IMG/VR virus record: IMGVR_UViG_3300051215_000002
Location: 1 to 20,169 of that record
From: a virus
DNA length: 20,169 nt
Reading direction: 5' to 3' (one strand)
Of this stretch, positions 1-16,869 are shown one piece after another (the first letter of the stretch is position 1; each line of letters opens with the position of its first letter). Under the pieces are notes generated by a model, which was not told the origin of the DNA, did no database searches, and saw only the letters and a list, made by a program, of their open reading frames with translations. The position numbers were made by a program, and so were the translations under genes.

Positions 1-35
1 GTCTTGGCGCGTGCCGCGCGCTGCACCTTGTCCAT
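1..35 (-). CDS. 5' end of a gene running off the left edge (unidentified)
   Basis: An ATG at 35-33 overlaps the portal stop codon (TGA, 37-35) as TGATG, the stop-start arrangement typical of translationally coupled phage genes. The visible residues read MDKVQRAARAK before the window ends. A G-run at 50-45, nine bases upstream of the ATG, could be the ribosome-binding site and forms one arm of a hairpin. By position, directly after the portal, a scaffold or capsid-assembly gene would be expected, but eleven residues are too few to identify it. Confidence 0.55.
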   Translation of the reverse strand, partial: MDKVQRAARAK

Positions 36-2329
36 CACACCATGCCCCCGTTACCGGGGGCCTGCGGCGGCTGCGCGGCGATCTGCATGGCCTGCCCGTT
101 CATCTGCTGCTCGGCCTTGATCCGGGCGGTGTCCACGGCGACGCCGTACTTGGCGGCGATCTGGGCCATGGCGATCTCCATGTCCTGCAGCATGCGGTCG
201 CGCTCCCGGTCGTCCTGCATCTGGGCCTTCGCCCACTCCATCTGGATGCGCTGCGCGTCGCTGGCCAGCTTGGCCTGCGCCTTGATCTGCTCGGCGGCGA
301 CCATGGCCTGCGCGGGATCGCCCTGCGGCGGCGGCTGCTGCCCCGGCTGCTGTTGCTGCGCCTGCGGCGGCTGGATCGGCAGGTAGTACCGATCCACGTT
401 TGACACGCCGTTCAGCGACAGGATGTCGGCTAGCGTGTTGCGAAGCTGTGCGATGCCCGCCAGCGGGTTGGCGGGGCCGTAGGCTTGGATCGCCTGCAAC
501 TGGATTTGCAGGGTCTGCCCCAGCGCGGCGGTCTTCTGTTCCTCGCGGCCAGTGCCAAGGCCGACGTTGACGGTCGCGTCCAGTTCCGCATCCCAGACGC
601 GGGGGTCCATCGGCACGTAGGTGCCGTTGATCCGCAGCATCTCGGCCTTGGCGCTGTGCTTAGCCATCAGGCGCAGGATTTGGACGAACAGGCGACGCAT
701 GCCCGTGTAGGCGAGGTTGGCCACCATGACCTCGACCTGCCCCGCAGCGGCGCTGACGGTGGCCGTCACGGCTGCGCGGGTGGTGGACTGCATGGCGTCG
801 GGGTCCAACCCCATGCTGGCGCGCGTGACGCCCGTCTTCACCTCGACCATCTGGTCAACGTACTGCAGGGCGGGCAGCGTCTGGCCCGCGACAAACGGCA
901 CGGTCAGATCGCGCAGCATCCCCGGCGCGCGGACGCGGACGACGCCGCCGATCTCGTTGTTCAGCAGGTCGTCCATGTTGACCTGCCCCTCGACCGCCTC
1001 GGCGCGGGGCTGGTTGGTCATCTGGACGTTGTCCAAGATGCCGCGCAGGATCGCCGTCGCGGCGTCCTGATCCTGCTCAATGATTTCGACAAGGCTGCGC
1101 CCGAAGTACGTGTGCGGTTCAGGATCGACATGCCAGCCCGCGAAGGGGTGGTCGTCCACAGGCTCGTACATCAGCAGGCGGTTGGCCGATCCGCCCAGCA
1201 GGAACTTGTGCAGGATCGGCACGCCCGTGCCGTCCGCATCGATCCGCATGTACGCCTCGGTGATCGTCACCAGCTTCATGGCGGGGTCCAGCGCGTTCGC
1301 ATCCTCATCGCGGTTGATGGGATAGCGGCGGTACTCTTCCTCTTCCTGATCGCGCATGTCGGGCGATCCGGCGACGTCCAGTTCCAGTACCTTGTCCTCA
1401 TCGATGCCCAAGGCGATGACGTCAGCCGCGCGCATGTCAGTGCGGTGGCCGACGACGTAGTATTCGGCATCAGACCGCGCGTTGCGGTCGATGAAGAACT
1501 CTTCGGGCGGGACCGTGTCGATGCACAGCTTGCCTGCCGGATTGCGGCGCATGATGCGGACGTCGTGCAACTGGGGCAGCGGATCGGGCATCTGCGGTAG
1601 CTGCGACGGGTCGATGGGCTGGCCAGCGGCTGCGGCCTGCGCGGCCATCTGCTGCGCGGCTGCGACCTGCTGCTGCAGGGCCGCGATGGTGTCATCGTCC
1701 GGGCGTGCGCTCTCGCGCATGATCTCGACGCCGGGGCTGCTGACCACGGCCTGATACTGGGCGTCGTCCAGATCGGTGAAGTCGTAGACCTTGGGGTTGT
1801 CGTACTCGGCCCAGTACGCCTTGGTGAAGCCCGCCTTCTTGACCAGCGCGTCGTGCGTCACATCGCGCAGGATTTGAAAGCCGTTGTGCTGGCGGAACTT
1901 GGCGGCAGCGTACAGGCTGGCCTGTTCCATGCTGGCGACGTCTTCCGGGCCGCTGGGGACGAACTCCACGGGGCGATCTGATGTCATGAAGACGCGCTGG
2001 ATCGACGGCTTCACGGCGCGCACCGTGTCGCGGCACTTGGTGGCCACGACGCTGCTGCGGCCCTCTTCCGCGCCGATGTCCACCTCGCCCTCAAAGTACT
2101 CCTGCGCCTTGATGCGCTTGTCGGCGATCTCATCCGCGATGAATGCGATGGCATCGTCCACCGCTTGGCTGACGATGGCCTCAATGGCGTCTTCATCCAT
2201 CGGGCTGAACGGCTCAGACGTGTCGGCCTCATCTTCATCGGTCGATGTGTCGATGTCCGACATGACCATGTTCATTTCATCTTCATCTGCCAGTTCGACA
2301 TCCGGGCCGTAGGTGGGTCGCTTTGCCAT
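35..2329 (-). CDS. Portal protein
   Basis: At 764 aa this is in the size range of P22-type portals. It would form the dodecameric ring at one capsid vertex through which DNA is packaged and ejected. The N-terminus (residues 10-50) is very acidic. The core has segments I recall from annotated phage portals, such as VPPEEFFIDRNA (about 274-285), a HTYFGRSLVEII stretch, and TGVTRASMGLDPDAMQ, the region around the DNA-facing tunnel. The C-terminal roughly 110 residues are Gln-rich and predicted helical, resembling the barrel or coiled-coil crown of P22-like portals. A Q/A/P-rich insert lies at residues 214-254. The start is supported by GAGG five bases upstream of the ATG. It follows the ejection-protein genes by 11 bp and overlaps the next gene. 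The portal call is family-level recognition; the P22-like subtype is less certain. Confidence 0.88.
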   Translation of the reverse strand: MAKRPTYGPDVELADEDEMNMVMSDIDTSTDEDEADTSEPFSPMDEDAIEAIVSQAVDDAIAFIADEIADKRIKAQEYFEGEVDIGAEEGRSSVVATKCRDTVRAVKPSIQRVFMTSDRPVEFVPSGPEDVASMEQASLYAAAKFRQHNGFQILRDVTHDALVKKAGFTKAYWAEYDNPKVYDFTDLDDAQYQAVVSSPGVEIMRESARPDDDTIAALQQQVAAAQQMAAQAAAAGQPIDPSQLPQMPDPLPQLHDVRIMRRNPAGKLCIDTVPPEEFFIDRNARSDAEYYVVGHRTDMRAADVIALGIDEDKVLELDVAGSPDMRDQEEEEYRRYPINRDEDANALDPAMKLVTITEAYMRIDADGTGVPILHKFLLGGSANRLLMYEPVDDHPFAGWHVDPEPHTYFGRSLVEIIEQDQDAATAILRGILDNVQMTNQPRAEAVEGQVNMDDLLNNEIGGVVRVRAPGMLRDLTVPFVAGQTLPALQYVDQMVEVKTGVTRASMGLDPDAMQSTTRAAVTATVSAAAGQVEVMVANLAYTGMRRLFVQILRLMAKHSAKAEMLRINGTYVPMDPRVWDAELDATVNVGLGTGREEQKTAALGQTLQIQLQAIQAYGPANPLAGIAQLRNTLADILSLNGVSNVDRYYLPIQPPQAQQQQPGQQPPPQGDPAQAMVAAEQIKAQAKLASDAQRIQMEWAKAQMQDDRERDRMLQDMEIAMAQIAAKYGVAVDTARIKAEQQMNGQAMQIAAQPPQAPGNGGMV
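45..60 (-). promoter_or_regulatory. Perfect 6-bp GC hairpin over the putative RBS of the next gene
   Basis: On the minus strand the sequence reads CCCCCG-GTAA-CGGGGG: six G-C pairs closed by a GNRA-type tetraloop. The 3' arm is the only Shine-Dalgarno-like sequence for the ATG at 35, with a 9-nt spacer. It lies within the last codons of the portal gene, so a ribosome finishing the portal would open it. No U-tract follows, so it is not an intrinsic terminator. The regulatory role is inferred. Confidence 0.45.
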
Positions 2330-2340
2330 GTCGGCCTCGC

Positions 2341-4314
2341 TTATTTGCTGATGGTGATGCGGGGGATGCCCGACGTGGCGGATGGTGCGGCGCGCGTCGC
2401 GCCTGCCGTGACGCGGTCGATGGCCTCAATGGTTGCCTGCTGCAGTTGCCCGACCATTGAACTGTCCTTCAGCGCCCGCTCCACAAGGGCGGGGTCTTTA
2501 GAGAGTACAATGCGGGCGACCTCAAGGCGCTGCGCATCGGTCAGCTTCGGCTGCGCCGATCCGGCGATCCGCATCAGCATGCGCGCCCACGCCATCAGAT
2601 CGCTCCCGGCGTTCACAGCCTCCTCGGCCATGTTCAGCGGCGCGGCATCGATGGACGGGGCCAGCATCGTCTGCGACGTCACGCTGTTGTCGATGATGGT
2701 AGACTTGGCCTTTTGGGCGCTGGCTGCGACATCAAGGGCGCGCGTCACGTCGTCTGCCGTCCCCGGCGGCAGGGCCAGCCGCAGGGCCGTGCCGGGGCCA
2801 GTGGTCTCATCCGACAGCGACCGCATCATCCCCGGCGCGGCGCTGGGTTTCGACATCCCGGCGCGCAGCGACGTCAGCATGCCCTCGCGGAACGCCGCGA
2901 CGGCGTCCGGGCCGAGTGCCGTGATGTCATCCATCAGCAAAGCCAGTTCATCGGGCGACTTGCGGAACGCCTCGGTGCCTGCCTTGAAAGCGTCGCGGGC
3001 GTCGCGGACGACTTTCGCCTCGGCCCGCGCTGCTGCCAGCGGCGGCGATGCGACATCAAGGCGACCCTTGAAGCCCTCGCCAAGGTCTTTTAGCGCGCCG
3101 CCCAGCGTCCCGGCCTTGTCGGCATAGGCTTTGTCTGCCATGTCGCGCAGGCTGCGGTAGGTCAGTTCCGCCTCGCGCAGCGTCGGCGCGCGACCAAACT
3201 GGATCGTGCCGTCTGCGGCCTCGGTGAAGAACGGCGTGATGCCGTACTTGACGCGCGCCACATCTGCCGCCGCCTTCAGGGCGTTGGGTGCGCGGCCAGC
3301 GATGTCTGCCATCGCGGCGACAAGGTTATCGGGTGCCATGGCCTCGACGCCGCCGGGGCGGAACGCCTGCTCATAGACGATGTCTTCGGCCTCCTCGGTG
3401 GCCTGTTCGCTGACGCGGCGGTTGGCCAGCGGGTTGCCGGGACTGCCAAGCGCGGCCTGCCCCTGTTCCATCGCGGCGGCGCGCGTCTCGCCGGGGCGGG
3501 CCGACAGCGTCGTCTTGATTTCGGCCCCGGCGGGGCCACCCTCCGCATAGAAGCGGCGGATCATGGTATCCAGCGTCTTGTTCTCAGCCATCAGGGTGCC
3601 GTTGCGGACGCCGTCAATGACCTCATCCGGCGTCAGCCCGCCGCGCTCGGCTAGTTGCTGCACAGCGTTGGACACAGCGCCCGCCATGCGGTCGCCAGAC
3701 TTGTTCCTGACCCAGTTAATCAGCCCGTCCAGAGAGCGGCTGGCCGCGCCCCCGACTGCCCCCAGCATACCGCCAAGGCCAGCGCCAAACAGGCCCTGCA
3801 CGCCCGCGTTGGCTGCGCGGTTGACGACGCCACCCTCGCCGCTGCCAAAGCCGTAGGCCATGCCTGCCTTGGCACCGCCGATGGCCCCGCGCACGCCGCC
3901 CGCGAGGGCCGCAGCCATGCGGCCACCCGCCACGGGGGCGGCAGCGCCACCAGACAGCAGCACCGGGGCCGCAGCGCCCAGCATCTCATAGCCCAGCGAA
4001 CTGGCGGGATACGCCTCCCGGTACGCGGCCAGTCTGGCCCGCTCATCGGTCAGGGCCGTGTCGTAATTCTCCGACAGCGTGCCTTCGCCAAAGGGGGCGC
4101 GCAGTGCGGCCATCGCCTCATCACCAAAGCCCAGCATCGCGCCCTGCCCGATGGCAGCGCGCAGGCGCTCTGTCGGGGCCGTGGCCTGCTCAGGCTGCGG
4201 CTCAAACGTGGCCATAAAGGCGTCGCGGTGCTCTTGCGTGTAGCTTTCCCACTCGGCGCGATCCACCGTGCCGATGACCTTGCCCTGCGAGTTTTTCAGT
4301 TCGATCTTTTCCAT
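2341..4314 (-). CDS. Putative internal virion / DNA ejection protein
   Basis: The protein has 657 aa. Residues 45-110 contain the pattern GFGDE...Y...R..L...YPASSLGYEMLGA, which I recall at the N-terminus of large ejection-type proteins of podoviruses. A long Gly/Ala-rich hydrophobic region follows (about 110-192) that could insert into or cross a membrane. The rest is mostly Ala-rich and predicted helical. Such proteins are packaged inside the capsid and released with the DNA to form a channel across the envelope. It lies between the M15-fused protein and the portal, the usual ejection-protein neighbourhood. The start has a strong GAGG seven bases upstream, overlapping the previous gene's stop. 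The exact counterpart (P22 gp16 or gp20, or T7 gp16 type) cannot be decided from sequence alone. Confidence 0.65.
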   Translation of the reverse strand: MEKIELKNSQGKVIGTVDRAEWESYTQEHRDAFMATFEPQPEQATAPTERLRAAIGQGAMLGFGDEAMAALRAPFGEGTLSENYDTALTDERARLAAYREAYPASSLGYEMLGAAAPVLLSGGAAAPVAGGRMAAALAGGVRGAIGGAKAGMAYGFGSGEGGVVNRAANAGVQGLFGAGLGGMLGAVGGAASRSLDGLINWVRNKSGDRMAGAVSNAVQQLAERGGLTPDEVIDGVRNGTLMAENKTLDTMIRRFYAEGGPAGAEIKTTLSARPGETRAAAMEQGQAALGSPGNPLANRRVSEQATEEAEDIVYEQAFRPGGVEAMAPDNLVAAMADIAGRAPNALKAAADVARVKYGITPFFTEAADGTIQFGRAPTLREAELTYRSLRDMADKAYADKAGTLGGALKDLGEGFKGRLDVASPPLAAARAEAKVVRDARDAFKAGTEAFRKSPDELALLMDDITALGPDAVAAFREGMLTSLRAGMSKPSAAPGMMRSLSDETTGPGTALRLALPPGTADDVTRALDVAASAQKAKSTIIDNSVTSQTMLAPSIDAAPLNMAEEAVNAGSDLMAWARMLMRIAGSAQPKLTDAQRLEVARIVLSKDPALVERALKDSSMVGQLQQATIEAIDRVTAGATRAAPSATSGIPRITISK

Positions 4315-4323
4315 GCGATCACC

Positions 4324-5637
4324 TCACGGGGCGGGGACAAACGACGTCGGCGGCTGGACTGTCCCGCCGCCGGGGCGCGGGGGCGGGTTGTTCATCGGCG
4401 GCAAAGCCGGGGCGCTGAGGTTACCAAAGAACACCAGATCGGTGGGCAGGCCAGCGGCCTGTGCCGTCCGCTTCAGGCCCTCGACTGCCTGCTGCGCGGC
4501 GGGCAACTTGGTGACCACCATCTGCTGCGACAGGCGCGCAATTTCATTCCTGACTTCGGGCGGCAGGTTGCCGCCGCCTTGCAGGGTGTTGATCAGCGTT
4601 GACCGCATGCCCGCCGACAGGCTCCCGGCGTTGGCGATGGCCGCGCTTTCGCCCTCGTGGACGACCGACGTCGGGTCAAGGATTTTGGCGTAGGCGACGA
4701 CCAGCGACTTGTCGCTGACCGATCCGGGGTTGGTGTAGAATGTTTCGATGTTGGTGTACGCATCCTGCATCAGAGCCAGTTCCTTCGTGGCCTTAGTCGC
4801 GTCGTCTTGCAACGCGGTCAGGCCAGACAACTGGTCGCTGGTCAGCAGCGGGGCCGCGCCGTTGGTCGGATCGTAGATGACCTTGCCCGTCCGTGGATCG
4901 ACCAACTTGCCGCCGACCTCGACGCCGTTAACCGCGTCGGGCTTCTGCATGGCGAGGCCGACAGCCGCCTTGGCGTCCAGCGCCCCGGTCATCAGCGCCT
5001 CGGCCAGATCGGTGCGCCCCTTGGATGCCAGCCATTGGGCCGTGCGGTTGGCGACCTGCGCGTCCTGCCGCTGCTGCTGCCGCGCGCCGATCATCTGGGC
5101 GATGCCCTGATCCGGGTTCATGCGCAGGCTGTTCGCGGCCAGCGCGATGGCGTCCAACGCGCGCCCGTCCTTCAGGCCCGCCTTGAGGCGCTGGCCAAAG
5201 GTCTGCGGTTCATCTTGCATATCGAGAAGGCCCATAGCCCCACCCCCGCTTGTACTCATCGTGATGTTGCCGCCGCCCGTGCCGCCGCCGACGTTCTGCC
5301 CGACCCAATCTGCAGCCCACCCCGGCAGGCTGTCCCGGCTGTAGGATGGCCCCCACGCGCGCGGTGCGCCGACGTCAAAGTGCAGGCTGTCGTCGTAGAA
5401 GCCGAAGCCCTGAAAGCCCGCATTGCGCGCCGCCGTGGCCAGCGCCAGACGCTGCTCTGGCGACATGCCCGCGACGCTGATGTCGAAGGCGTTGCCGTGC
5501 GTGTGCTGGCTGTTCCGCGCGCCGCCGACGCTGGCATTGTAGGCCGGATCGCGGAAGCCGCTGGTCACAGATAGGGGTTGGCCCCACGACTGCGTGAGGC
5601 GATCCAGTGCCGTCTGCGCTGCCGTGCTGATGGCCAT
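4324..5637 (-). CDS. M15 peptidase domain fused to a phage ejection-type protein
   Basis: The protein has 437 aa in two parts. Residues about 1-95 match the D-Ala-D-Ala carboxypeptidase-like M15 family: SGFRDPAYNASVGGARNSQH, then THGNAFD, and SLHFDVG. H45, D52 and H86 are the expected zinc ligands and all are present, so the domain should cut peptidoglycan peptide cross-links. A Gly-rich linker (about 117-135) leads to MGLLDMQDEPQTFGQRLKAG and a helical Ala/Gln-rich region of about 300 residues resembling internal virion proteins; the C-terminus is Pro-rich. A longer reading frame continues upstream to 6024, but it only shadows the preceding gene. The ATG at 5637 sits one base after that gene's TAA and lacks a clear Shine-Dalgarno. 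An internal ATG at 5235 (residue 135), preceded by a G-run, could give a separate peptidase-free product. Confidence 0.72.
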   Translation of the reverse strand: MAISTAAQTALDRLTQSWGQPLSVTSGFRDPAYNASVGGARNSQHTHGNAFDISVAGMSPEQRLALATAARNAGFQGFGFYDDSLHFDVGAPRAWGPSYSRDSLPGWAADWVGQNVGGGTGGGNITMSTSGGGAMGLLDMQDEPQTFGQRLKAGLKDGRALDAIALAANSLRMNPDQGIAQMIGARQQQRQDAQVANRTAQWLASKGRTDLAEALMTGALDAKAAVGLAMQKPDAVNGVEVGGKLVDPRTGKVIYDPTNGAAPLLTSDQLSGLTALQDDATKATKELALMQDAYTNIETFYTNPGSVSDKSLVVAYAKILDPTSVVHEGESAAIANAGSLSAGMRSTLINTLQGGGNLPPEVRNEIARLSQQMVVTKLPAAQQAVEGLKRTAQAAGLPTDLVFFGNLSAPALPPMNNPPPRPGGGTVQPPTSFVPAP

Positions 5638-5638
5638 T

Positions 5639-6331
5639 TTACTTAAACCCAGCCAGTGCCGTCGCGCCCGCCGTGAGGTAGTCGAACAGCCCTTTTTTCT
5701 CTGTGTTTGTCGTCGTGCCTTGGCCCCCCGGCATCGCGCCCAGTGCGCCCAGAACGGACGACAGGCCCGCGTTGGGTGCGCCCGTAAAGCCGCCGTACTG
5801 GCCTTTGGCTGCATCGATAAGGGCCTGCAGCATCTGCTGCTGCTGGCCACCCATCTGCGCCTGCTGGCCCGCAAGCTGCGTGCCATAGCCGAAGCCGAGG
5901 TTGGACAGGTTGCCCAACTGACCAGCCGCCTGAAGCTGCAGGTTCTGCTGGTTCTGCGCCGCCCCCAGCGCGGTGTTGAAGCCCGTGTTGTACAGGTTCG
6001 CCGCCGTCTGGCCTGCCGCGTCATAGAAGTTGCGGTTGCTCTCGGCCTCGGCGACGCCGTGCCGCGACCCGCCGTATGCGCCAGCCTGCGTCGCCTGCGC
6101 GCCGATGTCGTTCATCGTCATCTGCCGCGCCCGGTTCAGCGCATCCATGGACGTGTTGACGACGCCCTGCGTGAAGGGGTTTGCAAACGCACCAATGTTC
6201 GGCCCGCCCTGCATGACGCCCTGCGTCCCTTGCAGTGCGCCCGTGTAGGCGTTGGCCGACTGGTTGAAGACGTTCTGCCCCGGCTGCGCGGTCGGGACGG
6301 TCACGTTCTGCGGATTGCCTGCGCCAGACAT
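5639..6331 (-). CDS. Putative internal virion protein, Gln/Ala/Gly-rich
   Basis: The protein has 230 aa, rich in Gln, Ala, Gly and Asn, with a predicted long helical middle (residues about 55-190, including GAQATQAGAYGGSRHGVAEA). I recall proteins of this composition and pattern beside ejection proteins in marine podoviruses, but no biochemical function is known to me. The C-terminus ends in KKGLFDYLTAGATALAGF, a short amphipathic stretch. Its ATG overlaps the preceding stop as TAATG, so translation is coupled. Position between two other putative ejection proteins suggests virion packaging. It could instead be a tail-associated protein. Confidence 0.5.
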   Translation of the reverse strand: MSGAGNPQNVTVPTAQPGQNVFNQSANAYTGALQGTQGVMQGGPNIGAFANPFTQGVVNTSMDALNRARQMTMNDIGAQATQAGAYGGSRHGVAEAESNRNFYDAAGQTAANLYNTGFNTALGAAQNQQNLQLQAAGQLGNLSNLGFGYGTQLAGQQAQMGGQQQQMLQALIDAAKGQYGGFTGAPNAGLSSVLGALGAMPGGQGTTTNTEKKGLFDYLTAGATALAGFK

Positions 6332-7017
6332 TATCGGCCTCCCCGGAAAGTGCTTTTGGTCGCCGCGCTGGCGCTGGATCGGCTGATTGGCCGATCTGCC
6401 TGCGTCGGCGCGCGGGGCGCAGCCTGCGTGGCCCGCGCAATCGCTTGGTTGATCGGGCTGGTCAAGTTGCGATCATGCACGCCCCCCGGCAGGCGCGACG
6501 ACGCCCAGTTGGTGATGCTGCTTGTGCCGCCGCCCCGCGACGGTGCCAGCGCCGCGATCTCAGCCGCGCTGCGGTCAGATCGGCTCGACATCGGCATCGC
6601 TGCCGGGGCGACGGGCTGCGCTGCTGCCGGGGGCTGCATCCACGTCGGCATCGCGCCCGTCATCGGGTCCGAGAACTGGCCCATGATGGCGTTGTACGCC
6701 CCCGGATAGCGGGCCTTCAGTTCGGCCACCGCCGCCTCGTACATCGGCGCGGAACTGTAGCCCCGCACGCCGCCCGCGAAGGTCTGCGCTTCCGGCATGC
6801 CCGACGACGTCGGCGCGGCCATTCCGAAGGCCGACGCGCCCGTGTTGATGTTCGACATCGCCGCGTCCTGCATCGGCGTCATCGCGGCCACGTCCGGGCC
6901 GTAGTAGGGGGTGTACCCGATGGAGGCGACGCTGTTTGCACGGCCAAGGCCCTGCTGCGCGGCGGCACTCAGCCATTCGGGGATTTTTGTCTCTGACGTC
7001 TGCTTGCCGCCGCTCAT
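6331..7017 (-). CDS. Conserved phage structural or ejection-associated protein
   Basis: The protein has 228 aa. The N-terminal roughly 65 residues include IPEWLSAAAQQGLGRA and GYTPYYGPDVAAMTPMQDAA, a block I recall as conserved in phage virion-region proteins. The remainder (residues about 115-228) is Pro/Ala/Ser/Arg-rich and probably disordered. No catalytic motif is visible. The ATG lies one base after the previous gene's TGA, with AAGGG about eight bases upstream. Gene order links it to the ejection-protein set. The function is unknown and the call rests on position and the conserved N-terminus. Confidence 0.45.
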   Translation of the reverse strand: MSGGKQTSETKIPEWLSAAAQQGLGRANSVASIGYTPYYGPDVAAMTPMQDAAMSNINTGASAFGMAAPTSSGMPEAQTFAGGVRGYSSAPMYEAAVAELKARYPGAYNAIMGQFSDPMTGAMPTWMQPPAAAQPVAPAAMPMSSRSDRSAAEIAALAPSRGGGTSSITNWASSRLPGGVHDRNLTSPINQAIARATQAAPRAPTQADRPISRSSASAATKSTFRGGR

Positions 7018-9510: not shown

Positions 9511-9534
9511 TTCGCCAGTGCCTTGTCAGGCGAA
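9511..9534 (-). other. Hairpin spanning the endolysin stop codon
   Basis: On the minus strand TTCGCC pairs with GGCGAA across a 12-base loop (9517-9528) that contains the endolysin TGA. The AGGA ribosome-binding site of the next gene (9510-9507) begins right after the 3' arm. There is no following T-run, so it is not a standard terminator. It may tune transcript stability or coupling; that role is inferred. Confidence 0.35.
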
Positions 9535-10386
9535 CAGTGTGGCCAGCGTCTTCGGCCCCGCGACCCCGTCTACCGTCAGCCCGTTGGCCTGCTGCCAGCG
9601 TTTGACGGCGCTCTCAGTGGATGGCCCAAAGCTGCCGTCAGGCACCATGCCGAGGCGCTTTTGCAGGCGCAGCACGGCATCGCCCTTGGCCCCCCGGCGC
9701 AGCGTCTCAGGCGCGGGGGTGGGCAACTCGTTGACGACGACCGATCCGGGCGGCATGGACAGGATCGCCAGCGCGCGGTTGTAGCGGTCCCGGCGGTCGT
9801 CCAGCCCGATGTCGCCACCATTGATGACCTTGGTCAGGTGGACGATGTCCCCGATGTCAGCCATGGTGTTCAGCTTGCGGCTGTCCCAGAACCACAGGGC
9901 CGACTTCAGTGCGCCCTCCTTGGTCAGCAGGTAGTCAGCGACCTGCTCTGCCGTCATCCCGATCAGCTTGCCAAACGCCGCGTGGTTGGCGCGGCCCGTG
10001 ACCTGCTTCAGGCCCTTGCCCCGGAACAGCCAGCCGTCGCCCTCATGCACATTGCCCAGCGCCCCGGCGGCGCTGCGGTGCTTGTCCATGTAGACGTAGT
10101 TGGCGATCTTTTCGGGCTTGTGCGCGTACTCAGTCGCGTCGGCCTTGCCGGGGCCGAAATAGCGCGGGAAGACGCGCAGCAGCGTCTCTGCGCGGTAGTT
10201 CAGGTTCTCTTCCAGCAGCTTGAAATCAAGGCTCTCATGGGCGCATTGGGCGACAAAGCCCGCGATCCGCTGCGGGGTGTTGATGTCGTACTTGGGCAGC
10301 AGGCTGTTCAGGGCCTCAAGCCACTCGCCCGCGTCGCGGTTGGACGGCAGCATGGCCGACAGTTGGGCTTGGGTCAGGACAGTCAC
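9526..10386 (-). CDS. Endolysin: GH19 glycosidase with C-terminal peptidoglycan-binding domain
   Basis: The protein has 286 aa. Residues about 35-210 form a GH19 (chitinase/lysozyme-type) domain: QCAHES with E51 as likely catalytic acid, EGDGWLFRGKGLKQVTGR (115-132) and KVINGG (186-191). Residues about 228-284 form a PG_binding_1 domain (LRRGAKGDAVLRLQKRLG, then DGSFGPSTESAV and DGVAGPKT). It should cut the glycan strands of the cell wall at the end of infection. There is no signal peptide or membrane segment, so it would need a holin for release. It starts with GTG at 10386, overlapping the previous gene's stop as GTGA, with an AGGGG about ten bases upstream. Small membrane protein genes precede it, forming a lysis cassette. 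Confidence 0.88.
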   Translation of the reverse strand: MTVLTQAQLSAMLPSNRDAGEWLEALNSLLPKYDINTPQRIAGFVAQCAHESLDFKLLEENLNYRAETLLRVFPRYFGPGKADATEYAHKPEKIANYVYMDKHRSAAGALGNVHEGDGWLFRGKGLKQVTGRANHAAFGKLIGMTAEQVADYLLTKEGALKSALWFWDSRKLNTMADIGDIVHLTKVINGGDIGLDDRRDRYNRALAILSMPPGSVVVNELPTPAPETLRRGAKGDAVLRLQKRLGMVPDGSFGPSTESAVKRWQQANGLTVDGVAGPKTLATLFA

Positions 10387-10565
10387 TTTTTCAGCCCCTT
10401 CAGGCCCTCTGCGGCCCCGGTCAGGAAGTCATCGATGTTGCCCGTGGCTGCGGTCTTGATCGCCGCCTCGACGGGGTCGGGCAGGTCGATGCGATCCAGC
10501 ACGCTGTCCACGACCTTCTCCTTGACCTTGCGGCCCACGAACAGGCCGATCAGTTTTCCGATCAT
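10383..10565 (-). CDS. Small amphipathic protein in the lysis cassette
   Basis: The protein has 60 aa, beginning MIGKLIGLFVGRKVKEKVVD. The N-terminus is hydrophobic but short and interrupted by charges, so a membrane-surface helix is likelier than a full transmembrane segment. It ends in a lysine-rich tail (GLKGLKK). I recall short proteins like this beside phage holin and endolysin genes, without an assigned function. It overlaps the upstream holin-like gene by ATGA and the downstream endolysin by GTGA, which places it within the lysis operon. It could be a holin modulator; that is conjecture. Confidence 0.5.
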   Translation of the reverse strand: MIGKLIGLFVGRKVKEKVVDSVLDRIDLPDPVEAAIKTAATGNIDDFLTGAAEGLKGLKK

Positions 10566-10828
10566 TCGTCATCCCCCTTGGGTGCGCTGCGGTCTTCTTT
10601 GTTGCCTGCGGCCATCACGCCAGACAGCACGCCGACCAGAAAGGACGCGATGGGCGTCAGCAGTTCAAAGAACTTGCGGTCGTTTTCGCTTGTCGCGCCC
10701 AGCGGCTGGGTCACAAAGACCAGCGAATAGAGGATGAAAAAGATCGTCCCGCCAAGGATGACGGTCAGCGATACCCCGATGAAGTACCGCAGCTTGGCTT
10801 CCATGACGTTGGGGTCATTCCGCGACAT
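10562..10828 (-). CDS. Holin candidate (two transmembrane segments)
   Basis: The protein has 88 aa. Two hydrophobic stretches are visible: about 15-40 (YFIGVSLTVILGGTIFFILY) and about 53-75 (FFELLTPIASFLVGVLSGVM). The C-terminus is short and charged (KEDRSAPKGDDE). Size, two membrane helices, charged tail and position two genes before the endolysin fit a holin, which would form the inner-membrane pores that release the endolysin. The sequence does not match a holin family I know firmly. A GGAG six bases before the ATG supports the start, and the gene overlaps the end of the upstream gene by 14 bp. Confidence 0.5.
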   Translation of the reverse strand: MSRNDPNVMEAKLRYFIGVSLTVILGGTIFFILYSLVFVTQPLGATSENDRKFFELLTPIASFLVGVLSGVMAAGNKEDRSAPKGDDE

Positions 10829-11021: not shown

Positions 11022-11276
11022 TCACATTTTCGTTCGCTCGACCAATCGATCAAGCAGGCGATCCATCTTGGCGTCCAGCGCCTCAATGCGGAGAATAACA
11101 CGGTTGATGTCCCCATGCACCTCCGCCTTCGTGACGTACTCCTTGGCCAGTTCCTCGCGGGTGCGGTTCAGCAAAACCTGCAGCCGCTGAACCTCATCTG
11201 CGAAGAACTTCATCGCCCAGCCAACCAGCCCCAGCGCGGCGGTCAGAACGGCGCTCCAGATCATCTCAGGCGTCAT
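11022..11276 (-). CDS. Membrane-anchored coiled-coil protein in the lysis region
   Basis: The protein has 84 aa. An N-terminal hydrophobic segment (about 5-25, MIWSAVLTAALGLVGWAMKF) is followed by a charged helical region with heptad-like hydrophobics (FADEVQRLQVLLNRTREELA, then VILRIEALDAKMDRLLDRLV). This layout of one N-terminal membrane anchor and a coiled coil is that of inner-membrane spanins (Rz-like), and also of various phage proteins of unknown role. No partner outer-membrane spanin was found. It is the first gene of the presumed lysis cassette, 21 bp after the tail fibre gene. The spanin idea is an inference from architecture only. Confidence 0.5.
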   Translation of the reverse strand: MTPEMIWSAVLTAALGLVGWAMKFFADEVQRLQVLLNRTREELAKEYVTKAEVHGDINRVILRIEALDAKMDRLLDRLVERTKM

Positions 11277-14783: not shown

Positions 14784-16340
14784 TCAACGGCTCCTTCTTG
14801 TCCCGCGCGCCAGCAGGGCGTCAAGCGCGTACAGATTGGCGGCTTCCTTGCCTTGAGACGCCAAAATCTCATCATACCGCGAGTTGACGTCCACCCACTC
14901 AGGGTCGATGTCTTGCCGCAAACGCGGGTTCATCTGAAAGCCGCGCAAATCCTTCGGCAGGGCTTCCATGCGCGGCATGTTTGCGCCCTTCTTGGTCGCC
15001 GCTTCCATGCGCGGCAGCGCAAGATCGGGGAACATAAGATACCACGGTCGCGGGTCGCCCATCGTCATGCTCGGCCCGACTTTGTTCACCGCAGCGGTAT
15101 ACGTCGAATGGATTTCGCCCCCGTGGCGGCGGATCGCGTCGCTGGGTGCAGGCTCAAACAGGCGGTAGCCGCTGCTCAAAAGGTCTGCCCCGACAAGGTT
15201 CGGGTCCATCGTCGCCCAGCGCGTTGCGGCGACGCTGGGGATGTTGGCCTTCATGGCCGGGTTGGTGTCCAGCGCCTTCACGAACTTGGCTCGTTCTCCA
15301 CCCTTCACCGTCTCAAGAAACGCAGGCAGGCGGGGGTCCAAAAGACCCGTCAGCCCGCTCTGCTCCAGCGAGGCCAGTTTCGGCATGAACGTGGGGTCCA
15401 CGACGTCGGCTGACCCAGCGATAAGCTGCGCCTGCGTCTGGCCAAGGTGCTGGCTGAAATCCCCGCCCTTCGGTCCCATGACCATGGGCGTGACGCCGAC
15501 GCGAAGCCCCTCGCGCTGCGCCTCGCGCCATGCCTTGTTCCGCGATGCCATCGCGACTGGCTCGGACGCAAATCCCAGACGACCCCGGTCGATGAATGTG
15601 TGGCCAGCCTGCTGCAAGATGGGCTGCGGCAACGTCACGCCGTTTACGCTGTCGATGATGACGTTGTTCAGCGTCGCGTCCGCAGGGTAGCCGTACAGCA
15701 CGTCAAACTTGGCCCCGATGTCCTCTGGCCGCATGCTGACAGATGCCTCGTCCTGCCCTGACAGCCGTCGTCCCGTGACCTCCCAGTCGTAGGGTGCGAC
15801 CTTGTCCTGTTTCAGCCCAGAAAACTCGGTGTAAAGCGCGAGGTCTTTGGCCTTCCCGCCACCCCTGCGCGGCTCGGCGAAATTCTCTGCCCCCGTGCGG
15901 CGAAACGGCGTTGCGTTGTCTAGTGCCTCATCGGGCAGGCGACCCAGCGCGTTGTACAGGCCACCAAGGTTGACCGACCCGCGCTCATCCGCGACGAAGT
16001 CCATCAAACCGCGCTCTACGGTGGGTGCCACAGCGCGTCCAGCAGATAGCAGGCCCTGACCACCCAGCAATGCGCCAAGGGCCTCTGTGGCCGCGTCTGC
16101 GCCCGCTGCGACGCGATCCACGCCACCCAGCGACGGGTCCAGCGCGCGGTTGGTCGCCGCCGCCGACCGTTGTAGGCCGACGACGGGGTTCAGCATTTCA
16201 TTGACCGCGCCCACGCGGTCAGGGATGCCCGTGGGGCCGAGGTAGTAGCGCAGGGCCTCGGCCAGCGCGGCCTCTTGGCTGTCCAGCCAGCGACGGCGAT
16301 CCTGACCCGCTTCGGACGAGAAGAAATCCAAAATTCCCAT
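14784..16340 (-). CDS. Large phage protein of unknown function
   Basis: The protein has 518 aa and begins [20 protein letters not shown]. It is a soluble, mixed alpha/beta-looking protein without membrane segments. Segments such as [37 protein letters not shown] and [18 protein letters not shown] resemble a family of large phage and prophage proteins that I recall with conserved MGxxGxDF and LMFPD pieces and no defined activity. PRMEA occurs twice, 13 residues apart, near residue 440. AGGA seven bases upstream supports the start. The neighbours, a lytic transglycosylase upstream and virion genes downstream, make packaging in the virion plausible. An enzyme acting in the host is another possibility; no catalytic residues can be named. 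Confidence 0.6.
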
Positions 16341-16350
16341 TGGTGTATCC

Positions 16351-16869
16351 TCAGTCCAAGAGGCCCATCGGGCGGGGCCGGGGGCGTGTAAGTTGCAGGA
16401 GGTCCATCTGCTGCGGCAGTTCCATCCCCGTCGCGTCGCGGTATAGCTTGCGGATGTGGCCCGCGTACTCTCTGGCCTGCTGGCCCATGTCTTGCGGCCC
16501 CTTTCCCGCCGCCAGCACCGAGTTCATTTCGATGGGGCCAGCGTTGTAGGCCGTCAGGGCGTTGTCGATGTTGCCCCCATAGGCCCGCATCAGATCGCGC
16601 AAGTATGGGTCGCCGAGGGCCATGTTGATTTCGGGGTCGAACAGCAGCGACTTGGCCGTCTCTGGCGTCTCGTTGATGACGTCGTACCCCAAGCCGCGCG
16701 CCACGTCGAACACCGACGGGGCGCTGTCGCCGTACAGGTCATGCGCGTGTTCCGGCTTGATCTGCATCAGCCCGACGGCACCCTTCTTGGACACGGCCAT
16801 CGGGTCGCCCTTGCTCTCGCGCTGGATCAGCGCGTTGATCAGGTCGCTGAACTGAAACTGGTCGGCCAT
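16351..16869 (-). CDS. Lytic transglycosylase (SLT, LysM-free)
   Basis: The protein has 172 aa. The SLT/goose-lysozyme-like motifs are intact: ALIQRESKGDPMAVS with E18 as catalytic acid, KKGAVGLMQIKP (28-39), INMALGDPYLRDLMRAYGGN and ALTAYNAGP (104-112). The enzyme would cleave peptidoglycan glycan strands with formation of an anhydro ring. There is no signal peptide and no membrane segment. Its position among virion genes, far from the lysis cassette, suggests a virion-associated enzyme that opens the wall during DNA entry. It ends in a Pro/Arg-rich tail and the motif MGLLD. The start is the first ATG; AGGA lies about 11 bases upstream, a rather long spacing. Confidence 0.85.
   Translation of the reverse strand: MADQFQFSDLINALIQRESKGDPMAVSKKGAVGLMQIKPEHAHDLYGDSAPSVFDVARGLGYDVINETPETAKSLLFDPEINMALGDPYLRDLMRAYGGNIDNALTAYNAGPIEMNSVLAAGKGPQDMGQQAREYAGHIRKLYRDATGMELPQQMDLLQLTRPRPRPMGLLD

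Follow-up and report, generated by a model that had tools for sequence, protein, structure and literature searches.

What does a wall-cutting peptidase domain do at the front of a gene that lies among what look like the ejection genes of a bacterial virus, and how did it come to be there? The gene in question is found on a 20,169-base virus contig from IMG/VR, recorded as 'linear', the whole of which was analyzed and is referred to here as the window; the coordinates of its features are given in Table 1. Its product is likely to be the second of three proteins that make up an ejection set, occupying the position of the tunnel-class proteins (T7 gp15, P22 gp20), with a muralytic head that can be exchanged and with a form that probably also occurs headless. 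What was computed directly, and what this reading builds on, are the domains of the protein, the order of the genes, the exchange of heads with its breakpoints, the relatives that lack a head, and one pair in which head and core are split.

Table 1. Features of the peptidase gene and its neighbors in the window.
Feature	Position	Strand	Length or basis
Whole gene, exchangeable M15 head and ejection-type core	4324..5637	-	437 aa
Head, M15_3 peptidase with H45, D52 and H86, residues 1-112	5302..5637	-	boundary by eye
Gly-rich linker, residues 113-134	5236..5301	-	pLDDT <50 over 119-145
Shine-Dalgarno-like stretch GGGGGTGGGG	5238..5247	-	pairing energy -9.9
Putative internal start codon, Met135, beginning MGLLDMQDEPQTF	5233..5235	-	
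Constant middle of core, residues 135-229	4951..5235	-	common to all nine head types
C-terminal part of core, exchanged among relatives	4327..4950	-	residues 284-393 match phrog_13634
Upstream neighbor, DNA ejection protein family phrog_4287	5639..6331	-	230 aa
Downstream neighbor, phrog_5880 (function unknown)	2341..4314	-	657 aa; gp16-like by position and size only
Portal protein, SU10_portal	35..2329	-	E 1e-170

The gene begins with the ATG at 5637 and ends with a stop codon at 4326-4324. A longer frame reaching 6024 runs into the upstream gene, the stop codon of which ends one base before ATG 5637. An AlphaFold model of the whole protein, of moderate confidence (21-row alignment, mean pLDDT 73.8, pTM 0.40), consists of the M15 domain, a disordered linker and a mostly helical remainder. 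The front part matches Pfam Peptidase_M15_3 (PF08291) over residues 8-85 (E 1.4e-18; score 67.4 bits, curated cut-off 23.2), and the M15_2 profile matches it as well (2.7e-7). Among solved structures, the zinc DD-peptidase 1lbu is closest to it in sequence (E 7e-8), and H45, D52 and H86 are all present in the aligned stretch, where they correspond to what we take to be the zinc ligands of 1lbu (HxxxxxxD...H). The same structure is the best fold match of the head model (Z 9.8, rmsd 2.6 over 98 residues), followed by Hedgehog domains (Z up to 8.7) and the endolysin 8q2g (Z 8.2). Judged by its sequence, the head is an intact zinc peptidase domain of the M15_3 type, and it is predicted to cut peptidoglycan; the initial annotation had likewise seen an M15 domain here and named the same three residues.

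The order of genes on the minus strand is a virion structural protein (phrog_3287), a few further genes, the phrog_4287 ejection protein, the M15 gene, the 657-aa gene and the portal. In podoviruses, the ejection operon runs from a gp14-like through a gp15-like to a gp16-like gene, according to the review PMC8954989, which also sets out the roles of the three proteins. The portal and the relatives of the window are of podovirus type, and the M15 gene is placed between a gp7/gp14-like and a putative gp16-like ejection gene. In P22, the corresponding order is gp7 (229 aa), gp20 (471 aa) and gp16 (609 aa), to be compared with 230, 437 and 657 aa here, and the P22 records describe gp7 as DNA ejection and gp20 as 'released from the phage upon host infection'. 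This gene order around the 437-aa gene agrees with the earlier suggestion that the M15 head is joined to an ejection-type protein. A profile comparison of the upstream neighbor with P22 gp7 was not significant (0.3%).

The P22 gp20 family, phrog_2534, is matched by a headless relative (L033, 7.7e-11) and by two headed ones (L004, 2.5e-8; L017, 8e-4), these being proteins that have either the window-type core or an M15 head on another core. The window protein itself gave no match to phrog_2534, and the alignment of the core compared with a six-member alignment of P22 gp20 gave an hhalign probability of 1.1%, which is not significant. Since the family is matched in relatives but the comparison of core profiles is null, we describe the protein as one that probably works like the gp15/gp20 class, and do not claim membership of it. 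No solved homologue of the core was found by sequence (best E 0.78), and no fold match marks it as a tunnel protein, the fold searches being led by the M15 part. Whole-length matches to viral models named LT_GEWL or SleB were set aside (rmsd 25-29). Cellular genomes scanned for the core yielded 19 pattern matches, none of which was confirmed.

Related loci were gathered in two ways, through the upstream neighbor (keeping the best 80 of 267 loci) and through the core. Even the first relatives to be found had this core, beginning MGLLDMQDEPQTF, behind fronts of other kinds. Of 85 unique proteins classified, 55 had the core; two copies (L015 and L129) and one protein cut by a contig end (L128) were dropped, leaving 52 that include a few shortened by contig ends. 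Within this sample, which draws on the best 80 of 267 neighbor-scan loci, 40 of the 52 distinct core proteins carry one of nine head types and 12 carry none. The GESGGDY type is the most frequent (20), followed by SLT (5), SleB Hydrolase_2, M15-like A4 and Phage_lysozyme2 (3 each), M15_3 and M15-like L118 (2 each), and M15_4 and the L124 type (1 each). One locus (L003) is labeled M15_3 because its contig carries the head at its opposite end (L002). Pfam names five of the nine types (M15_3, M15_4, SLT, Hydrolase_2 and Phage_lysozyme2), and the remaining four, which we infer to be enzymes as well, are named by none of the libraries used. The GESGGDY head corresponds to phrog_14527 (function unknown) and has no convincing Pfam match, a weak match to a solved sequence (E 0.0027) and a low-confidence model with no fold match, so that 'lysozyme-like' is a label given by eye. 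The A4 head is called M15-like from an H..D..H pattern seen by eye; none of its matches to solved sequences is solid (an FKBP, E 0.044; the M15 endopeptidase 8q2g, E 0.049).

The distribution of heads requires at least 13 changes of type on a tree of the cores and 15 on a tree of the upstream proteins, where the least possible number is 9. The trees hold 51 proteins (L031, which is cut, was left out) and 49 (L111 and L133 lack the neighbor), respectively, and both are quick builds with several weak branches. Head labels are nonetheless clustered on them, as shuffled labels require 28-29 changes, and this clustering despite the many changes indicates that exchange is frequent but not free. M15_3 heads also precede another core (L004, L005 and L007-L009). 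From these comparisons of sequence, the M15 domain is one state of a slot with exchangeable heads. The gene fusion proposed initially is real in that an M15 head is joined to this core, but it is not a single event, as the trees call for a minimum of 13-15 changes of head.

Breakpoints can be seen in the DNA of close relatives. The L123 and L124 loci share 96.3% identity over 4.6 kb, ending 12-15 bases into the gene; the heads that follow are unrelated, and some 20 codons ahead of the core identity is back, at 97.0%; their C-terminal parts diverge again after 493 bases. When the window is compared with relatives bearing other heads, similarity returns at 5277 (L013), 5286 (L022) and 5283 (L120), all within the linker, placing its exchange point 14-17 codons ahead of Met135. 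Between L014 and L016, which also have different heads, similarity is back only 4 bases before the core, and the exchange point varies between locus pairs. The closest relative of the window (contig 3300033067_000354, the locus L003) is 92-93% identical in DNA through the head, linker and middle, and its portal is 91% identical; no DNA similarity to it was detected from 4959 to 2329, a stretch comprising the rest of the gene and the whole of the 657-aa gene. The C-terminal part of the core and the 657-aa gene are thus both dissimilar in DNA between these close relatives, as if they were exchanged jointly and interacted. A clustering of C-terminal parts and next genes lumped too much and gave no readout of linkage.

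Head and core also occur as separate genes. In L041, three bases separate the end of a lysozyme gene (Phage_lysozyme2) from a core gene of its own (E 1.8e-6 against the core model in a three-sequence check), the start of which, MGLLD, resembles the internal Met135 of the window protein. Together with the 12 headless proteins among the 52, this split pair shows the two parts apart. Among held-out loci (the best 80 of 131 from a core scan, less 36 that overlapped earlier loci, leaving 44 with 33 distinct rows), 22 of the 33 rows have no recognized head, two of them cut by contig ends. A stand-alone M15 gene exists in L010: it specifies 171 aa (M15_3, 2.1e-18 by Pfam), has the equivalent place in the operon and overlaps the next gene by ATGA, but that next gene is not a detected core homologue (E 2.5).

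A start-like signal lies at the seam between head and core. The in-frame ATG at 5235 (Met135) follows the stretch GGGGGTGGGG, and initiation there would give a protein of 303 aa. The pairing energy with the anti-Shine-Dalgarno sequence is -9.9 at Met135 and -4.3 at the full-length start, and the Met135 site is the best of the 12 internal ATGs of the gene, so the G-run that the initial annotation had pointed to before this ATG is indeed a strong Shine-Dalgarno-like stretch. For all 16 lineages of the first set, and for 7 of 8 held-out ones, the best internal site of the gene falls within the junction zone, where chance would give 2.6 of 16 and 1.3 of 8 (3.9 of 24); these lineages, and the 11 headed rows of the 33 held out, were chosen by eye and share ancestry, and so are not independent. 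The junction site in gp19 of Octadecabacter DB virus 2 (MW805364), at Met157, ranks no higher than second among the internal sites, and the lineage of this virus is represented in the count by L054. Energies of -8 or better are reached by 20 of 71 distinct junction-zone ATGs in the first loci, compared with 6 of 483 elsewhere in the same genes, and by 5 of 30 compared with 0 of 158 in the held-out rows, although only 14 of the 24 lineages reach this value (11 of 16 in the first set, 3 of 8 held out).

The strength of these sites was also compared with what the encoded peptide would dictate, by holding the amino acids fixed, redrawing the codons and setting the junction pairing energy against the resulting mean. 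All 16 lineages of the first set fell below the mean (Fisher p 3.8e-6), as they did with codon usage from the same genes only (16 of 16, 1.9e-5). In the held-out set 6 of 8 were below (p 0.09, or 0.046 with the codon usage of the genes themselves), and for the window alone the result is weak (p 0.11-0.13). Gly-rich control zones containing Met gave a mean z of +0.41 (n = 118; none with p<0.1, two reaching -8), and those within the same genes +0.47 (n = 90; none with p<0.1, one reaching -8). The first codon-usage and control sets consisted of all coding-strand stop-to-stop frames of at least 300 codons, and may include spurious frames.

The position of the junction Met varies: an ATG stands at the first codon of the core in 18 of 27 distinct sites. 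Several junctions low in Gly still have AGAGGAG or AAGGAG before the ATG; in L004, L005, L007 and L009, where M15 heads precede the different core, AAGGAG lies eight bases before the junction ATG, which is the best site. A linker of the form (I/V/Y/M)S(T/N)RGAP(Q/E)M is shared by L017, L024, L027, L028 and L054, which have four different heads between them, and GAGGAG precedes the ATG in all five, spelled AGAGGAG in four and CGAGGAG in L027. RNA folding around Met135 is weaker than in shuffled sequences (z +1.4), and is near zero in two relatives (+0.2 and -0.5). In Sulfitobacter phage phiGT1, which is related to the window by its portal, gp18 occupies the same slot and is annotated as an internal virion/injection protein with a muramidase domain; its internal start sites are all weak (-5.8 at best). 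Since the muramidase domain of phiGT1 is annotated as internal, this is what one would expect of a signal that goes with an N-terminal head.

Two readings of the seam have to be weighed. We lean, on balance, towards a conserved docking point, at which the core keeps its own ribosome-binding site and ATG, any wall-cutting head may be plugged in-frame upstream, and headed and headless subunits are both produced. The other, which has a smaller though substantial chance of being correct, is that the Shine-Dalgarno-like stretch merely follows from the linker being rich in Gly, or is a site of ribosome pausing, and that no second protein is made. The linker of the window does contain much Gly, and the synonymous comparison there, like that in the held-out lineages with two of eight not below the mean, would suit a by-product. 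Against it stand the Gly-rich control zones, none of which reached p<0.1 in either set, the low-Gly junctions that keep AGAGGAG or AAGGAG before the ATG, and the fact that 23 of 24 lineages have their best internal site at the junction. If docking occurs at a start kept by the core, the linker peptide (STRGAPQM, STSGGGAM) would be a translated ribosome-binding site.

Alternatives to an ejection role for the protein appear less probable. It is unlikely that we are dealing with a structural or tape-measure-like virion protein whose wall hydrolase acts from the tail and is not ejected; in its favor, there is a resemblance to tail tape-measure families (phrog_9570) in the Phage_lysozyme2 head of L037, and the core is without a solved homologue, yet the slot, with an ejection-protein family on one side and the 657-aa protein on the other, is that seen in P22, and portal and relatives alike point to a podovirus. 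That the gene specifies a free, non-virion endolysin with an unusual C-terminal binding part is very improbable. The M15_3 part does match an endolysin family (phrog_894, 2e-18), but the operon consists of virion genes, headless relatives occupy the same slot, and the window has another gene of endolysin type, with a domain for binding peptidoglycan, at 10386..9526. Slighter still is the chance of a recent one-off fusion in the phage of the window, for which one could cite the rarity of M15_3 on this core (2 of the 52 proteins, one from the window and the other from a closely related contig); that contig, however, has the same join, M15_3 heads are borne by another core, and eight other head types are found on the window-type core. 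A one-off recent fusion was rejected on the heads of relatives, the trees and the breakpoints, the recency of the window's own M15 head being a matter apart.

In the reading we prefer, as a middle ejection protein, the protein would be packaged in the virion and would leave it before or together with the DNA. The M15 head would then cut stem-peptide bonds in the periplasm, opening a path, and the helical cores might form or line a conduit. The core would retain a ribosome-binding site and ATG behind the in-frame head, and because it keeps them, the gene probably yields chains of both kinds, one full-length and one headless, the latter translated from Met135. With both starts in use only some chains would be headed, and a weak first site followed by a strong second would favor headless chains.

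Two-product designs of a similar kind are those of lambda C/Nu3 and T7 gp4A/4B. For the protein itself, P22 gp20 (phrog_2534) offers a parallel in gene order and size class, and in the family matches of some relatives; it differs in that its record annotates no enzyme head and in the non-significant comparison of core profiles. In phiGT1 gp18, the muramidase domain is internal according to the record note, and not at the front as here; the phiGT1 paper (PMC10386132) notes that divergence or mosaicism makes the genes of internal virion proteins difficult to locate. That ejection proteins can bear enzyme domains, and that these move from one member of the set to another, is already published (PMC8954989), and the review in question calls domain swapping among such proteins thematic. 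It describes T7 gp16 as an ejection protein with an N-terminal lytic transglycosylase: the muralytic domain is N-terminal in both, the ejection of the window protein being presumed, whereas T7 gp16 is a gp16-class member, cuts glycan and has 1318 aa. In the same review, gp35 of the E. coli phages K1E and K1-5 is a gp15-like ejection protein with lysozyme activity. As proposed for the window, the wall-cutting activity is there on the gp15-class protein and not on gp16; what sets the window family apart is the many heads at one seam, zinc peptidases among them, and the start-like signal.

The nearest described design is that of the endolysin genes that yield two polypeptides, such as CTP1L (PMC4777826) and LysIME-EF1 (PMC7098653). 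They share an in-frame internal start after the catalytic domain, and their full-length and C-terminal products form mixed oligomers (PMC9430671). They are lysis enzymes, however, and their short product is usually wall-binding, while that of the window would be an ejection-type core. A search among open-licence PMC papers found no report of M15 heads on ejection proteins or of internal starts in them, which is weak evidence; ejection proteins with enzyme domains are known, and so are endolysin genes with two products, and for the two combined we found no report. The locus turns a thinly sampled idea, the movement of wall-cutting domains among ejection proteins, into a natural experiment that can be counted, with nine head types (five named by Pfam), one conserved core and mapped exchange points. 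By retaining a start signal where head and core meet, the phages may have an uncomplicated genetic means of setting the number of enzyme heads per DNA-injection conduit. If the docking reading is true, one gene would provide a conduit with only some enzyme heads, and the head could be replaced to suit the host wall with the conduit untouched. The natural head-core junctions are a ready set for the study of phage entry.

Two further wall enzymes had been proposed for the window. The SLT enzyme at 16869..16351 (minus strand) is confirmed by PF01464 (E 1.9e-21). Of the GH19 endolysin at 10386..9526 (minus strand), the peptidoglycan-binding part is strong (PG_binding_1, 5e-15), but Glyco_hydro_19 is below the cut-off (E 0.083). 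Two small ORFs beside this gene (10828..10562 and 11276..11022) appear by eye to be membrane-bound, and have no Pfam match. Some relatives have other arrangements. The L020 locus (4125-6344 of MW202675) specifies a 739-aa protein beside a portal that combines an acetyltransferase-like part, M15_3 and an ADP-ribosyltransferase of polyvalent-protein type. In L059, L065 and L066, the core protein is replaced, after the ejection protein, by an ORF starting MT(V/A)CLQFSGGKDSLACLYL, which bears some resemblance to PAPS-reductase/ATP-pyrophosphatase proteins. In the window, the SLT gene ends ...PRPMGLLD*, and ten bases on, a gene at 16340..14784 (minus strand) for a protein of 518 aa with no family match starts MGILDFF; the two look like another split pair of head and partner, with the same MGLLD signature.
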